Position numbers and translations under genes: made by a program
Part shown: piece by piece, positions 51,942-57,642 of the stretch
Layout: every line of letters begins with the position of its first letter
Position numbering within the stretch: position 1 is the stretch's first letter
Assembly: GCF_003633775.1 (NCBI RefSeq)
Contig: NZ_RBIN01000001.1
Span: 248,001-312,000 of the forward strand
Length of the DNA: 64,000 nt
Direction: 5' to 3'
Source: Kushneria sinocarnis
Lineage (GTDB): Bacteria; Pseudomonadota; Gammaproteobacteria; Pseudomonadales; Halomonadaceae
The notes under the pieces: generated by a model
What the model saw: only the letters and a program-made list of their open reading frames with translations
What the model was told of the DNA's origin: nothing
The model's database searches: none

Positions 51942-53741
51942 CTAGCTCTTCAACAGCGCAGTCAGCACCCGACCATCGAGTGAGCCGCGCTCGGCCAGCC
52001 CGAGCCAGTGCGCAAGTGTTGCGCCGAGATCACTCATGCGTGGCAGTCCTTCACTGATCGCCAGGCCGGAGCGTTCGTCGGTGCGCACTCCCGGGCCGTG
52101 TAGCACGGCCAGCCCGTGATTGGAGGCAAAATCGGTGCGCGCGCTGGGGATCTGCGGGCCATGATTGGCCCCCGGGCTCTGCACCGGGGCAAGGGTATCG
52201 CCGTGCTGGTTGGTCCCCCAGACGAATCCCGGGCTGTAGGCAAAGAGGACATCGCCGGCATGTTCACCCCAGTAGCCCAGTACCTGGGCATCGCATTTTT
52301 TCAGCGCCACGGCGATCACGTTCTGCTCACCGTCGGGGGTGACGCAGTACCAGCTGGTGAGGGCGCGCAGAATACGGGTCTGCACTTGATCGAAATCGGC
52401 CGGCGCGACCACGCCTTCGGGGTCGCGTCCGGCCAGGTTGACGAAGATCTCCAGTCCGCCGCGCTCATCCTTGAGCAACGCTCGGCTTTGATGGCGGATT
52501 GGCTGTCCGTAGTCATCGAGCGTGCAGAGATCGAATGTTGCCAGCCGACGGTAAATATCGCAGAGATAGCGGTTGGGCACGTCGCCATGATCGGACGCCA
52601 GCACGATCAGGGTATCGTCACGGCGCTGCTGCAATAGGCGTCCTACGCCCTCGTCGAGCACCCGATAGGCACGGCGGATCACGTCCAGATAGCGTTCGCG
52701 CTGCTCGGGGCGGTAAAACGGCGAGGCGGGATCGCACTGGGCGAGACAGGTATGGTGAGTTTCGTCGTTGAGCCGGAATACCGTGGCGAACAGGTTGAAG
52801 TCGTGCTCGTTGAGCAGGGTCATGGCCGCATTGGTGAGCCAGTCGAGCTGATAGCGTCCCTCCTCGAAGCTGGTCTCGAACCAGCGCTCGTCGGGCGAAG
52901 CCGTGACCGTCCACTTCGAGATGAAGGGGCCATGCCGATCGATCAGGACACGTGCCAGCTCGGGCTGGCTGCTGTGCTCGGCCGGTACGGTAATCTGGGA
53001 CTGCAGCAGCTCGACATGGTGATGGATCGGGTCGAAGGCCAGCAGTTTGAAACGTACTCGTCCCGAGTATTCATCGTCACCGATCGGCAACCACTCGCTC
53101 CACTCGCCACTGCTCAGAGTGATGGGTCGATCGTGGCAATGCAGGGTCAGGCGCTCATCATCGGCTTGCATACGCAGTGACCGGGTGGTGCCATCGTTGA
53201 GCTGAAGGGTGGCGGTGAAGCCTTCGTCATGCACTTCGATCGCCCGACGATTGTGCTTCTGGTGATGGGCGAGCGTGGCACCGGCAGGCGGCCAACCCAG
53301 CGACTCCGAGGGCTGCGCTGTCACCGGTAGATCGTCCGTGGTGTGCAGGGCGGCAGCCGCCATTTCCATGGGGGCCGGGCCGGCACCGCTCCAGAAGGGC
53401 GCCAGGCAGAAATCCTGCGCGCCACTCGGCTGGAGACTTTCGGGAAAGTGCACCAGGGCACTCCTGTATCCCTGCTCGCTCATCAGCTCCAGCAGATGCC
53501 GAGTACCGACAGGCGGCATGCGCTGGCCGATCCAGCTGGTACCCGGTGCCTGGCCGGTCAGCATGGTCACGAAGTTGGTGTCACCCCAGGTCGAGATCCA
53601 GGGCATCAGTCGGGTCGCACCGCCCTCGTCGAGCAGGCGCCGGATGTTGGGCAGCACGCCTTCATCGCAGAAGCGCTCGAGTAGTTCCGGGATCAGCCCG
53701 TCCACGCCCAGTACCACGACCTTTCTCTGTGAATCCTGCAT
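51942..53741 (-). CDS. alkaline-phosphatase-superfamily phosphodiesterase/phosphatase, cytoplasmic
   Basis: A 599-residue protein with the alkaline-phosphatase-superfamily core. VVVLGVDGL supplies the first metal aspartate (D14), TWGDTNFVTML carries the candidate threonine nucleophile (T51 or T55), and NDETHH and the LASDHGD pair (D384, H385) supply the second site. SNHGLAVLHGPGVR holds the last metal histidine. About 200 extra residues between the nucleophile and the second site form a beta-rich insert. There is no signal peptide, which is unusual for scavenging phosphatases and implies an intracellular substrate. I chose the ATG with AGGA 8 bp upstream; one at 53750 is the alternative. It is the last gene of the LacI-controlled sugar-acid operon, and its substrate is unknown. 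Confidence 0.8.
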   Translation of the reverse strand: MQDSQRKVVVLGVDGLIPELLERFCDEGVLPNIRRLLDEGGATRLMPWISTWGDTNFVTMLTGQAPGTSWIGQRMPPVGTRHLLELMSEQGYRSALVHFPESLQPSGAQDFCLAPFWSGAGPAPMEMAAAALHTTDDLPVTAQPSESLGWPPAGATLAHHQKHNRRAIEVHDEGFTATLQLNDGTTRSLRMQADDERLTLHCHDRPITLSSGEWSEWLPIGDDEYSGRVRFKLLAFDPIHHHVELLQSQITVPAEHSSQPELARVLIDRHGPFISKWTVTASPDERWFETSFEEGRYQLDWLTNAAMTLLNEHDFNLFATVFRLNDETHHTCLAQCDPASPFYRPEQRERYLDVIRRAYRVLDEGVGRLLQQRRDDTLIVLASDHGDVPNRYLCDIYRRLATFDLCTLDDYGQPIRHQSRALLKDERGGLEIFVNLAGRDPEGVVAPADFDQVQTRILRALTSWYCVTPDGEQNVIAVALKKCDAQVLGYWGEHAGDVLFAYSPGFVWGTNQHGDTLAPVQSPGANHGPQIPSARTDFASNHGLAVLHGPGVRTDERSGLAISEGLPRMSDLGATLAHWLGLAERGSLDGRVLTALLKS

Positions 53742-53768
53742 GTTTGTCATCCTGATGAAGTGGTGCGA

Positions 53769-54920
53769 TCAGTCGTCGAGCCGGTAGTGGTCGATGACAC
53801 TGCGATCGATGTCGATTCCCAGCCCCGGGCGCTCAAGCACCTCAACACAGCCGTTGGCATTGAGTGCGAATTCGCCGCTGATCAGCTCGCGCCGGAAGGG
53901 GTGACTCGACTGGTCGTATTCGAGCATCGGCGCCTCCGGGGTCAGGGAGAGTGGCTGGGGCGGCAGAGTGGCGATGAACTGCACGGCGGCGGCCAGACCG
54001 ATGCCGGTGCCCCATACGTGTGGCATGACCGGGATGTGCCAGGCCTGCGCCAGTGCGGCGATGCGGCGACATTCGGTGATCCCGCCGGCGGCGCCGATAT
54101 CGGGCTGAATCACATCAAGCGCGCCCTCGCTGATGAAGTCGCGATAGCCGATGCGGGAGTATTCGTTCTCACCGGCAGCGATCCAGGTGCGTGACACGCC
54201 CTTGAGTTCGCGGTAACCGTGTCGGTTCTCCGGGCTCAACGGCTCCTCGAAGAGATGCACCCGGGTCTCTTCCAGCTCCATCAGGATTCGACGTGCGGCG
54301 GGCACGCTATAGGCGCAGTTGGCATCCATCATCAGGGCAATATCGTCCCCCACGGCTTCGCGTACGGCGCGCATGTCACGCAGGTCGGCCTCGATACCAA
54401 AGCCGGTCTTGAGTTTCATGGCCCGATAGCCATTGGCCTGGTGGCGCAGCGCCTCTTCCACCACTTCCTCGGGGTAACGACCCCCTTCACGGCGATAGAA
54501 CCCGGTGGCATAGGGTCTGATTTCGCGACGAAAGGCGCCGCCCAGCAGACGATGAATCGGCTGGCCGAGTGCCTTGCCGGCGAGGTCCCAGAGCGCGATA
54601 TCGATTGCCGCAATGCCGAACAGGGCGATGCCCTTCTGACCATAGGGGCGGGTATGGTTGTACATCTCTTCCCAGAGCACTTCGCGCTCGAAGATCGAGC
54701 GCCCGATGATCAGCGGTTTCAGGGCGTGCTCGACCATGGCGCGCGCCACTTGTGGTGGCTGCAGGCCGTGGTTGACGCACTCGCCCCAGCCGGTGAGACC
54801 TTCGTCGGTGACAATCTCGACCAGCATGGCGGTGCGGCGCTGTACCCAGCCCTGGGAGAAAGCGAACGGTTGCTCGAGTGGGGCGGCGAGCACATGGGTT
54901 TTCAGCTCGGTGATGATCAT
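53769..54920 (-). CDS. enolase-superfamily acid-sugar dehydratase/cycloisomerase (mandelate racemase subgroup)
   Basis: A 383-residue enzyme of the mandelate racemase subgroup. The base motif KxK is K169-L-K171, metal ligands are D199 (DAN), E225 (FEEP) and E251 (GENE), and the opposite-face base is the D274-H301 dyad (QPDIG, MPHVWG). From memory of the family, stretches such as IDIALWD-GK, GFGIEADLR and PHVWGTG are close to Agrobacterium D-galactarolactone cycloisomerase rather than to classical glucarate or galactonate dehydratases. ATG 54920 has AGGAG 7 bp upstream. It lies between the hexarate-type permease and the phosphatase-like gene. A hexaric or aldonic acid, or its lactone, is the likely substrate. 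Confidence 0.85.
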   Translation of the reverse strand: MIITELKTHVLAAPLEQPFAFSQGWVQRRTAMLVEIVTDEGLTGWGECVNHGLQPPQVARAMVEHALKPLIIGRSIFEREVLWEEMYNHTRPYGQKGIALFGIAAIDIALWDLAGKALGQPIHRLLGGAFRREIRPYATGFYRREGGRYPEEVVEEALRHQANGYRAMKLKTGFGIEADLRDMRAVREAVGDDIALMMDANCAYSVPAARRILMELEETRVHLFEEPLSPENRHGYRELKGVSRTWIAAGENEYSRIGYRDFISEGALDVIQPDIGAAGGITECRRIAALAQAWHIPVMPHVWGTGIGLAAAVQFIATLPPQPLSLTPEAPMLEYDQSSHPFRRELISGEFALNANGCVEVLERPGLGIDIDRSVIDHYRLDD

Positions 54921-54957
54921 TTCCGGCTCCTGGGTGATAGCGAAAGCGCGGGGTGGG

Positions 54958-56307
54958 TCAGTCGAAACGGATGCGTTCGATCCGGCCGACGATGAAGAGA
55001 TAACTGAAGACGGCTGTCAGGGCGTGGGCGATCACGAAAATCAGCGCACCATTGAAGGAGCCGGTGTCGTTGACGATGTAGCCGATCGCGATCGGCGTCA
55101 CGATGCCCGAACAGTTACCGAACATGTTGAACAGACCGCCGCTCAGGCCGCTGGCCTCTTTCGGCGCGACGTCGGACATGATTGCCCAGCCCAGGCCGCC
55201 AAAGCCCTTGCCGAAGAAGGCCAGTGCCATGATGGCCACGATCAGCCAGTCGATATCGATGTAGTTGCAGATCAGCATGCTGGTCGACAGCGTCATGCCC
55301 AGCACGATGGGGGTCTTTCGAGCCGCCGTCAGCGAATGCCCGCGGCGCAGCATCATGTCGGAAAAGACCCCGCTGAGAATGCCGCCGGCAAAGCCGCACA
55401 CGGCCGGGATCGAGGCCACGAAACCGGCCTCGAGGATATTCATGCCGCGGGCATCGACGAGATAGACCGGAAACCAGGTGAGGAAGAACCAGGTCAGCGC
55501 ATTGAAGCAGTACTGGCTGATATAGATGCCCACCAGCATGCGCGAGGAGAGCAGGCGCCGCAGGGTGCGCCCGGTATGACCACGCTGACTGGTCTGCGTC
55601 CGGCTGTCGTGATCCATGTCGACCAGCGCACCGCCCTCGGCGATATAGGCCACTTCGGCCTCGTTGGCGCGTTGATGATCGCGCGGGGCGTGCACCACGA
55701 CCAGCCAGATAAAGAAACACACCACGCCCAGCGCGCCCATGACGAAGAAGGTGGCCTCCCAGCCGAAATGGTAGGTCAGTGCCCCCATGATCGGTGCGAA
55801 CAGCACGGTGGCGAAATACTGTGCGGAATTGAAGATGGTGGCGGCCCGGCCGCGCTCCTGCAGCGGAAACCAGCTGGCGACAATGCGACTGTTGCCCGGA
55901 AAGGAGGGAGACTCCGCCAGCCCCACCAGAAAGCGCAGGACGAACAGCACGATCACGGCAGCCCCGGCGGTAAAGGCGCCCGCGGTGCCCTGAAAGAAGG
56001 TAAAGGTCGACCACAGCAGAATGCCGGCGGCATAAACCCGACGGGAGCCGAAGCGATCCAGCAGCCAGCCGCCGGGGAGCTGGGCAATGACATAGGCCCA
56101 TGAGAAAGCGGAGAAGATATACCCCATGGTGACGCTGTTGATCCCCAGGTCGTCGCGCAGTGCCGGTCCGACAATCGAAATCGCGGAGCGGTCGGCGTAA
56201 TTGATCAGGGTAATGCCGAACAGCATGGCAAGAATCAGATAGCGCACATGGGTCTGGCGTGGCTGGTCGGTCGTGGCGCTGGCACGGCTGCGGAACATCT
56301 CATTCAT
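54958..56307 (-). CDS. MFS permease, GudP/GarP-like hexarate transporter
   Basis: A 449-residue, 12-helix major-facilitator protein of the anion:cation symporter family. Matching elements to the E. coli glucarate/galactarate permeases are long: SAFSWAYVIAQLPGGWLLDR, GLAESPSFPGNSRIVASWFP, FNSAQYFATVLFAPIMGALT and FVASIPAVCGFAGGIL. Proton-coupled uptake of D-glucarate, galactarate or a close relative is therefore the best call. I chose the ATG at 56307 since upstream residues are not conserved. It is the first gene of the operon and is divergent from the LacI regulator, with an operator-like site 13 bp before its start. Confidence 0.9.
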   Translation of the reverse strand: MNEMFRSRASATTDQPRQTHVRYLILAMLFGITLINYADRSAISIVGPALRDDLGINSVTMGYIFSAFSWAYVIAQLPGGWLLDRFGSRRVYAAGILLWSTFTFFQGTAGAFTAGAAVIVLFVLRFLVGLAESPSFPGNSRIVASWFPLQERGRAATIFNSAQYFATVLFAPIMGALTYHFGWEATFFVMGALGVVCFFIWLVVVHAPRDHQRANEAEVAYIAEGGALVDMDHDSRTQTSQRGHTGRTLRRLLSSRMLVGIYISQYCFNALTWFFLTWFPVYLVDARGMNILEAGFVASIPAVCGFAGGILSGVFSDMMLRRGHSLTAARKTPIVLGMTLSTSMLICNYIDIDWLIVAIMALAFFGKGFGGLGWAIMSDVAPKEASGLSGGLFNMFGNCSGIVTPIAIGYIVNDTGSFNGALIFVIAHALTAVFSYLFIVGRIERIRFD

Positions 56308-56319
56308 GAGTCGTCTCTT

Positions 56320-56333
56320 TCGTAGCGCTGCAA
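56320..56333. promoter_or_regulatory. LacI-type operator, site 1
   Basis: TCGTAGCGCTGCAA matches 12 of 14 positions of the perfect palindrome at 56429, with the same CG-centred core. It lies directly upstream of the permease start, where bound repressor would block transcription or translation initiation. Confidence 0.6.
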
Positions 56334-56428
56334 AAAAGGTTGTGTGGCTCGAGACGAAAGGTGTTTCTCGGAATGCGTTTGATGAAACGCTGCACCCGTC
56401 GCCATGGGACACGATTTCGACATCTATT

Positions 56429-56442
56429 TCGTAGCGCTACGA
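56429..56442. promoter_or_regulatory. LacI-type operator, site 2 (perfect palindrome)
   Basis: TCGTAGCGCTACGA is a perfect 14-bp palindrome with the central CG typical of LacI-family operators, lying between the divergent permease and regulator genes. With site 1, about 109 bp away, it could support repression by looping. Confidence 0.75.
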
Positions 56443-56463
56443 TAGCGGTACGATTATTACGAT
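56438..56463 (+). repeat. three phased TACGAT direct repeats
   Basis: TACGAT occurs at 56438, 56449 and 56458, spaced 11 and 9 bp, that is about one helical turn each. The first copy is the right half of operator site 2. The others could extend cooperative binding or serve a second regulator. Confidence 0.5.
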
Positions 56464-56616
56464 CCCATCCCACCTTGGTCGCAGCTGACAGCCGGTCCGG
56501 CAGCCCCTCACGCGCCGGCAAGGTTGCGCTGTCTTCGGCCAGCAGAGAAGATGACTCGCCCGTCCGGAACTGCTTCGCAGCTCGGCATCATCGCTTGCAG
56601 AGGAAGTCGAACAGCC

Positions 56617-57642
56617 TTGGCCACATCCAGACAGCGACGAGGTTCCCAGCGTGTCACCATGGGTGATGTGGCACGTATTGCAGGTGTCTCCCCCAGTACC
56701 GTATCCCTCTATCTGCGCCGGCCCGATGAGGTCTCCGAACAGCGCGGCCAGCGTATTCGGGCGGCGGTGGATCGGCTGGGCTATCTGCCCAACACCATGG
56801 CCGGTGGGCTGGCGTCGTCCCGCTCCCGCATCATCGGCGTGCTGGTGCCCACCATCAGCAACTCCTTCTTTGCGGCGACGCTCGATACGCTGGAGAAACG
56901 GCTGCGGGAGGCGGGTTATCAACTGCTGATCGGCAACACCGAATTCGACGAGGCGCGCGAGGAAGAGCTGGTCCGCTCGATGATGAGCTGGTCACCCGCG
57001 GGGCTGGTAATGACAGGTTTCCGTCACGGCCGTCGCACGGTATCGATGCTGCTCGACAGTGATATTCCGCTGGTGGAGATGTGGGACTACGGGCAACCGG
57101 CGCTGGATATGGTGGCAGGCTTTTCGCACTATGCGACCGGTCAGCTGATCGCCCGCCATCTGCTCGAGCGCGGCTACCGTGATACCGCCTTCATCAGCCC
57201 TCGCTTCAGCCGGGATGTGCGAGCCGGTGAGCGTTATCGGGGGTTCCGGGAGGGCATCGAGCAGGGCCGTGGTCGGGTCACCATGCGTGAACTGAGCGGA
57301 GCAACCGATACCGCGGAAGCCGGGACGCTGCTGAGCGAACTGATGGCCGAGCGGCCATCGATCAGTGCCGTTTTCTGTGCCAACGACATGGTGGCGCTGG
57401 GCGTGATGTTCGAGTGCCAGCGTCGTGGCTGGGAGATTCCGGAGCGGCTGGCGGTGGCCGGGTTCGGCAATCTGGAATTCACCCCCAATACGGTGCCGCC
57501 GCTGACGACTGTCGAGCCGCCCAAATATGAGATCGGCCAGCAGGTCGCCGAACTGCTGCTCGCCCGACTCGGCAAGTCGGGGGAAGCAGAGGCTCATCAG
57601 GTAGATCTCGGCGTGCACCTGATCACCCGTGAGAGTACCTGA
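56617..57642 (+). CDS. LacI-family regulator, GntR-like
   Basis: A 341-residue repressor. The N-terminal helix-turn-helix MGDVARIAGVSPSTVSLYL (about 15-33) is followed by the hinge GYLPNTMAGGLASSRSRIIG and a periplasmic-binding-protein-like sensor domain. That domain resembles GntR of E. coli (FCANDMVALGVMFECQRRGWEIP), consistent with a sugar-acid effector. The start is placed at TTG 56617 because AGAGGAAG precedes it and the length is then normal. An in-frame ATG at 56524 would add 31 odd residues, and one at 56659 would leave a very short N-terminus. It is divergent from the permease operon that it presumably represses. Confidence 0.93.
   Translation: MATSRQRRGSQRVTMGDVARIAGVSPSTVSLYLRRPDEVSEQRGQRIRAAVDRLGYLPNTMAGGLASSRSRIIGVLVPTISNSFFAATLDTLEKRLREAGYQLLIGNTEFDEAREEELVRSMMSWSPAGLVMTGFRHGRRTVSMLLDSDIPLVEMWDYGQPALDMVAGFSHYATGQLIARHLLERGYRDTAFISPRFSRDVRAGERYRGFREGIEQGRGRVTMRELSGATDTAEAGTLLSELMAERPSISAVFCANDMVALGVMFECQRRGWEIPERLAVAGFGNLEFTPNTVPPLTTVEPPKYEIGQQVAELLLARLGKSGEAEAHQVDLGVHLITREST

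Follow-up and report, generated by a model that had tools for sequence, protein, structure and literature searches.

An alkaline-phosphatase-superfamily protein with glycine at the nucleophile position, paired with an enolase-superfamily enzyme in a putative sugar-acid operon of Halomonadaceae

Described relatives of the Kushneria locus

Studies of how a single active site acquires new chemistry have used the alkaline phosphatase superfamily as a model, mostly for phosphoryl and sulfuryl transfers that pass through a covalent intermediate. Here we describe a member of this superfamily (termed AP below) that keeps the metal ligands of the fold but, in alignments, has glycine where the nucleophile would stand, and whose gene recurs beside that of an enolase-superfamily enzyme in a probable sugar-acid operon. 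The locus lies in a 64,000-nucleotide stretch of Kushneria sinocarnis (contig NZ_RBIN01000001.1, positions 248,001 to 312,000), which we call the window and whose numbering is used for all features of this locus.

The closest PDB relatives of the window enolase are 4ggb (E 5.7e-86) and 5olc (E 1.3e-85), which PMC5698469 identifies as Agrobacterium galactarolactone cycloisomerase (GCI) and Zobellia DauB, respectively. Identity is 38.8% to the Agrobacterium enzyme (AtGCI, encoded by Gci; structures 4ggb and 4hpn) and 38.9% to DauB. The window enolase keeps Trp298 together with Lys166 and His296, which are catalytic in GCI, and the metal-binding Asp194, Glu220 and Glu246, whereas Asp87, common to GCI and DauB according to PMC5698469, is replaced by Pro. 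It differs from Gci also in an insertion near residue 50, in the lack of a KdgD gene in its operon, and in the pairing with AP. In Zobellia, the DauB product is handled by a 2-keto-3-deoxygalactonate (KDGal) kinase and an aldolase, gene types that also stand beside Bacillota and Photobacterium relatives of the window enolase, and the accessible text of PMC5698469 mentions no AP gene in the Zobellia cluster.

For AP itself, the nearest described branch is that of NPP and phosphonoacetate hydrolase (PF01663), which shares the fold and six metal ligands; AP differs in having Gly, followed by an invariant Asp, in place of the Ser/Thr nucleophile. At the level of the operon, the D-galactonate system (DgoT, DgoK, DgoA) resembles the window in its TIGR00893 permease, and a Photobacterium relative adds a DGOK-family kinase and a KDPGal aldolase. 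However, the window enolase scores below the cut-off of the galactonate dehydratase model (213 bits against 311), the regulator is LacI/GntR-like, and an AP gene is present. The fold, the metal site and the type of pathway are already known. No description of the AP-enolase pair was found in the literature searched, a scope that excluded most subscription journals; within that scope, neither a clade without the nucleophile, nor its constant association with the enolase, nor the altered pocket of the enolase has been described.

Pairing with the enolase and the AP active site

The AP gene (51942..53750, minus strand) encodes 602 amino acids with the PF01663 fold (60.8 bits in a profile scan, cut-off 23), six metal ligands and a nucleophile position without Ser or Thr. 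Beside it lies the GCI/DauB-like enolase gene (53769..54920, minus strand), whose 383-residue product matches PF13378 and PF02746 and is probably a sugar-acid cycloisomerase or dehydratase. Among 201 Halomonadaceae genomes (the family, below), AP is present in 24 and the enolase (E ≤ 1e-120) in the identical 24, with the two genes adjacent in every one. The original prediction had assigned this phosphatase-like gene to the enolase pathway and named its absence from most relatives' operons as the finding that would speak against this; all 24 operons have it, and the assignment stands. A search of an 84,980-species collection with two AP peptide patterns, one spanning a WGDxN motif, so that relatives without both would be missed, yielded 31 named loci: 23 in Halomonadaceae genera, whose species mostly coincide with those of the 24 family genomes, and eight in Bacillota. 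In all 31 the enolase gene shares the strand of the AP gene and lies no more than 1.4 kb from it, either side by side or one gene apart; the gap is at most 52 bp in 29, and an MFS gene intervenes in L091 and L093. Because the pairing recurs in 24/24 family genomes and 31/31 named loci, we reject a chance neighborhood of AP and enolase.

The pair also occurs in a genome (G596) of another gammaproteobacterial family, enterobacterial-looking to judge from neighboring genes, where an MFS permease, a GntR/FCD regulator, AP and an enolase are encoded consecutively. Here AP accompanies an enolase nearer to AtGCI (50.8% identity) than to the window enolase (46.1%). Both G596 and the 24 family genomes were found independently of the motif-containing pattern. 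Among 295 genomes of the order to which G596 belongs, the AP family occurs only in G596 itself. Profile searches across samples of the class and the phylum yielded matches in 7/369 and 6/398 genomes overall, and beyond the Kushneria genome, G003 and G596 these were just weak matches to other PF01663 proteins. In the order of Paucisalibacillus, 18 of 299 genomes match, four with the AP family and 14 with distant PF01663 proteins only. The viral contigs searched held no AP relatives, and a plasmid collection gave three Mesorhizobium records only (22-24% identity to AP); the gene context of the two inspected differs from the AP-enolase operon. Two distant AP relatives on Mesorhizobium plasmids (L002:9980-11851 and L003:9995-11863) have Thr at the nucleophile position and adjoin DegT aminotransferase, transketolase and radical SAM genes, with the appearance of a biosynthetic cluster.

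Two irregular copies were also seen. In Halomonas olivaria (L095, AP019416.1) none of the LacI, TctA, enolase and AP frames is intact, probably because of sequencing errors rather than decay, and a 44-residue match to the AP C terminus (L118, G003:C25:25436-25567) lies about 2.7 kb from a full AP gene, perhaps as the remnant of a second copy.

The predicted AP model (pLDDT 71.9, pTM 0.77) matches ENPP6 and phosphonoacetate hydrolase (PhnA) in Foldseek (E about 4e-6 to 6e-6, prob 1.00), with TM-scores of just 0.3-0.5 and a root-mean-square deviation of 12-15 Å over whole chains; the 50 fold matches listed comprise phosphodiesterases, autotaxin, phosphonoacetate hydrolase and sulfatases. We aligned 21 AP family members (the window, 19 fetched loci and G596) with 23 distant PF01663 proteins, after removing rows L113, L114, L117, L118, L119 and L131 as family duplicates, no hits or fragments. 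The metal ligands D17, D329, H333, D387, H388 and H530 are present in 21/21 and 23/23, respectively. The nucleophile column holds Gly in all 21 family members and Ser or Thr in all 23 distant proteins, and the next column is Asp in all 21 and never Asp among the 23. These two residues, G56 and D57 (codons at 53580..53585, minus strand), are part of the WGDxN motif, which is found in 24/24 family genomes and 31/31 named loci, and N59 is likewise invariant in the alignment. The loop has no invariant Ser or Thr: positions 53-54 read N-L in Pullulanibacillus and S-A in G596 (rows L093, with N-L, and L120, with S-A, were kept in the counts), and position 58 is Thr or Val.

Several points weigh against reading this pattern as loss of the nucleophile. 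The argument rests on sequence alignment, and the model loop at residues 52-54 has pLDDT below 50. Of the 23 distant proteins, 13 come from Bacillales and resemble one another, and are hence not independent, and the motif was itself contained in one of the two patterns behind the 31-locus scan. HMMER does pair G56 with the catalytic Thr of Xanthomonas NPP, but through a very weakly scoring alignment.

The AP gene is under purifying selection, with a Ka/Ks ratio of 0.13-0.16 in four pairs; the enolase, at 0.028 in the one pair measured, is the more constrained of the two. Identity to 22 relatives other than G090 is 60-65% for AP and 82-89% for the enolase. The six ligands and many other AP residues are invariant across Halomonadaceae and Bacillota, and the six ligands are also found in G596.

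In E. coli alkaline phosphatase, the nucleophile Ser102 is reported to be needed for measurable activity (PMC4438272), and Gly at this position is the same change as was engineered there in S102G; removal of the nucleophile is reported to tighten dianion binding at least 100- to 1000-fold (PMC3699461). Because the nucleophile position of AP is Gly and Ser102 is reported as essential in the E. coli enzyme, AP is unlikely to act as a classical phosphatase, phosphodiesterase or sulfatase with a covalent mechanism. The original prediction had proposed a phospho-, sulfo- or phosphodiester hydrolysis step, and this part did not hold up: the nucleophile of such chemistry is missing in all 21 aligned members. 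Two specific candidates were also rejected. The phosphonoacetate hydrolase model TIGR02335 covers only residues 7-71 of AP and scores 23.4 bits there (cut-off 407.55). Formylglycine (FGly) sulfatases carry a C/S-x-P-x-R motif at the nucleophile position, and the corresponding stretch of AP reads STWGDTNF, without the motif.

The enolase pocket is altered as well. Residue 87 is Pro in all 24 family enolases and all eight from Bacillota, and Asp in that of G596; an HGxxPP insertion occurs in all 32 family and Bacillota enolases, and AtGCI, DauB and the G596 enolase are without it. Relatives in Pantoea At-9b and Caballeronia have a similar GLQPP insertion with Asp kept at the residue-87 position, and no AP match was found in the records that hold them. 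The enolase of Photobacterium sp. DA100 (55.8% identity) has both the insertion, as HGLQPP, and the Pro, and it groups with the Bacillota enolases with tree support of 99/99, its position inside the group being unsure. The second enolase group has support of 94/90 and 82/60. The tree comprised nine of the 24 family enolases and all eight from Bacillota; its row L182 fills just 35% of the columns, and the long branches of AtGCI and DauB are placed unsurely.

Permease, regulator and the class of sugar acid

The original prediction was accurate about the layout of the locus: a divergent, GntR-like LacI regulator gene stands opposite an operon that encodes an MFS permease, a GCI-like enolase and AP, with reading frames, strands and families as described, and both the gene set and the operators recur in relatives. 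The permease gene (54958..56307, minus strand, start picked by inspection) encodes a member of the D-galactonate-transporter subfamily, with 458.1 bits against TIGR00893 'D-galactonate transporter' (cut-off 395) and 6e9n, 'D-galactonate transport', as its closest PDB relative. GudP and GarP fall within the same broad subfamily; the earlier label of a GudP/GarP-type permease is not wrong, but it is narrower than this evidence. Among the 24 family loci, the MFS permease is found only in the window and its close relative G090, and at the other 22, as at six of the eight Bacillota loci, the transporter is the importer TctCBA. The intergenic gaps among the three minus-strand genes are only 18 and 37 bp (by inspection), which suggests that AP, enolase and permease form one transcript.

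The LacI-family regulator gene (56617..57642, plus strand, within the frame 56524-57642) is divergent in the window, as in 24/24 family loci, and comparison with relatives makes the TTG at 56617 its likely start. We label the product GntR-like, not GntR, because its best NCBIfam model, Pseudomonas GntR (NF052440), gives 315.6 bits, below the cut-off of 400. Between regulator and operon lies the operator TCGTAGCGCTACGA, a 14-bp perfect palindrome (56429..56442), with a degenerate second copy of two mismatches at 56320..56333. Allowing at most two mismatches, the window contains two matches against 0.16 expected in shuffles. Between the LacI and transporter genes, the exact operator stands at 23/24 family loci, while the remaining one, L031, has it with a single mismatch. 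In 18/24 genomes the operator is present twice, at a spacing of 82-143 bp. The pattern TCGYAGCGCTRCGA, searched in 24 whole genomes, matches in 23, each time at the AP-enolase locus; a reversed control pattern also matches once or twice in six of the 24. Because all whole-genome operator matches fall at this locus, the regulator appears to control the AP-enolase operon alone, insofar as strong genome-wide matches define its targets.

Genes beside the relatives bear on the class of compound degraded. A kinase and an aldolase of the 2-keto-3-deoxygluconate (KDG)/KDGal type are found in four of eight Bacillota operons (L092, L093, L094 and L099; PfkB-type kinase and KDPG aldolase families were scanned in L092 and L093 and assigned by similarity in the other two). 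In the Photobacterium operon (L179:7088-12752), the enolase, whose pocket shows the same changes, is encoded together with a TRAP transporter, a DGOK-family kinase and a KDPGal aldolase that scores over its cut-off. These kinase and aldolase genes, and the TIGR00893 permease, point to a product of the 2-keto-3-deoxy aldonate rather than the hexarate type, which would apply to the window by analogy. The hexarate operon proposed originally is weakened by the same evidence. Enzymes for such a product are encoded elsewhere in the Kushneria genome, with KdgK at 409.8 bits (cut-off 400) and Eda at 243.1 (156.05); across six family genomes tested, KdgK is over its cut-off in three and Eda in all six. 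KdgD, at 389.6 bits (373.95) in the Kushneria genome, is over its cut-off there, in four of five other family genomes and in three of eight Bacillota, but not in the other five Bacillota or in G596. Because it is found in 8/15 genomes tested, KdgD cannot by itself decide between aldonate and hexarate routes.

Other results count against an aldonate pathway in which AP serves the enolase. The two Bacillota kinases scanned reach 238.8 and 229.3 bits against the best model, with a cut-off of 400. Kinase and aldolase genes are present at 0/24 family loci, the window included, and none was found in the stretches examined of L091, L096-L098, L100 and L120; neither gene was found in four of eight Bacillota loci or in G596. 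KdgK is below its cut-off or without a match in three of the six family genomes tested, and the KdgD of the Kushneria genome leaves a hexarate route possible. The substrate of TctCBA is presumably a free acid, for which no lactonase would be needed. Finally, the Photobacterium record holds no AP match. The original prediction that AP is a partner of the enolase is borne out at 24/24 family loci, but the partnership is not universal, and because the Photobacterium operon lacks AP, the enolase can evidently work without it on some substrate.

A minority of loci carry accessory genes. A PRK10484-type sodium/solute symporter gene lies between TctA and enolase at four of the 24 family loci (L029, L037, L042 and L045) and in L100 (the family was scanned in L100 only and assigned by similarity in the others). 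In one Halomonas, a sulfatase gene with a CVPAR motif (L032:6484-7914) occupies this position and a KdgM-type porin gene follows AP; this sulfatase is a clue to a sulfated substrate. Directly after AP in L029 and L100 is a short-chain dehydrogenase/reductase (SDR) gene whose product is nearest to D-xylose 1-dehydrogenase, below the cut-off, and through which a lactone could arise at these two loci. Each found in only a minority of loci, these genes agree with a sugar open to sulfation and to oxidation to a lactone. In three Bacillota (L092:2788-4545, L094:2853-4666 and L099:2651-4428), TauE/SafE-type exporter and LysR genes stand divergently upstream of the operon, both families having been scanned in L092 and assigned by similarity in L094 and L099.

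Candidate reactions of AP

Our preferred explanation, which we hold tentatively and at a little less than even confidence, is that the locus forms a self-contained operon, probably induced by its substrate, for the use of an aldonate-type sugar acid, in which a nucleophile-free AP would act as a lactonase or ester hydrolase before the enolase. The general part, that the pathway of this enolase includes a nucleophile-free dimetal step, we consider probable; the specific assignment of AP as a lactonase or ester hydrolase is distinctly more doubtful. In such a scheme the substrate would be galactonate-like or a derivative, the LacI repressor would sense the compound and control the operon, and the acid would enter through the MFS permease in the window and through TctCBA at most family loci. 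Import would be followed in order by AP, enolase, kinase and aldolase. AP would belong to the same substrate line, its step most likely falling immediately ahead of that of the enolase, and because the two-metal site is kept and the covalent nucleophile is not, it would probably open a lactone or cleave an ester with metal-bound water, Asp57 serving as a base or an orienting group. The enolase would then abstract the alpha proton and eliminate the beta oxygen, yielding a 2-keto-3-deoxy aldonate (KDGal or KDG), to be finished by general cell enzymes, namely KDG kinase and KDPG aldolase or their equivalents. The absence of AP in Photobacterium would be explained if the free acid is imported there. 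Extended to the whole clade, it is conceivable, if as yet doubtful, that covalent catalysis was given up and that the two metals and the Asp perform non-phosphate chemistry on a sugar acid, such as lactone opening, lactone isomerization or epimerization, as the committed partner of a new enolase specificity.

The best-surviving alternative, though we regard it as rather unlikely, is that AP hydrolyzes a sugar-acid ester (phosphate, phosphodiester or sulfate) through direct attack by metal-bound hydroxide. An esterified substrate, as supposed in the original prediction, is possible, as is hydrolysis by metal-bound water. The phosphodiesterases, autotaxin, phosphonoacetate hydrolase and sulfatases among the fold matches fit such an activity, as do the intact metal ligands, the canonical sulfatase inside one relative's operon (L032) and the TauE/SafE-type exporter gene upstream in three Bacillota. 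However, the nucleophile is lost in 21/21 members, its serine counterpart is reported as essential in the E. coli enzyme (PMC4438272), and the at least 100- to 1000-fold tighter dianion binding reported to follow nucleophile removal (PMC3699461) also argues against it. Furthermore, AP is retained even where a sulfatase exists.

It is less probable still that AP is a sugar-acid isomerase or epimerase, either a Gli-like lactone isomerase or a C-epimerase, whose dimetal site holds the carboxylate while Asp57 acts as the base. Lost nucleophile and invariant D57 and N59 beside intact metal ligands would suit this reaction. Agrobacterium has a separate lactone isomerase ahead of Gci (PMC6353982), and in G596 AP adjoins the closer Gci relative. 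No non-phosphate isomerase is known to us in the alkaline phosphatase superfamily, which counts against the proposal.

Slightly less likely again is that the enolase is an ordinary galactarolactone cycloisomerase and that a hexarate pathway is completed by KdgD encoded elsewhere in the genome. The identity to AtGCI, the retention of all five catalytic residues and the distribution of KdgD (the Kushneria genome, four of five other family genomes and three of eight Bacillota) are consistent with this scenario. Against it stand the Asp87-to-Pro change and the HGxxPP insertion in all 32 enolases, the kinase and aldolase genes of related operons, which suit an aldonate, and the five Bacillota and G596 without KdgD over the cut-off. 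Least likely of all, and in our view improbable, is that AP is catalytically dead and serves as an enolase subunit or activator or as a substrate sensor: the lost nucleophile, the strict pairing and the faster divergence of AP would agree with this, but the six ligands and many further residues do not vary between Halomonadaceae and Bacillota, AP stands beside two rather different enolases, and the Photobacterium enolase stands alone.

With its metal ligands kept, glycine at the nucleophile position, an invariant Asp and a single metabolic partner, the AP clade offers a clean test of what a dimetal site can do without its nucleophile. Naming the AP reaction would, at the same time, identify the substrate of a conserved sugar-acid operon that is common to Halomonadaceae and several Bacillota.

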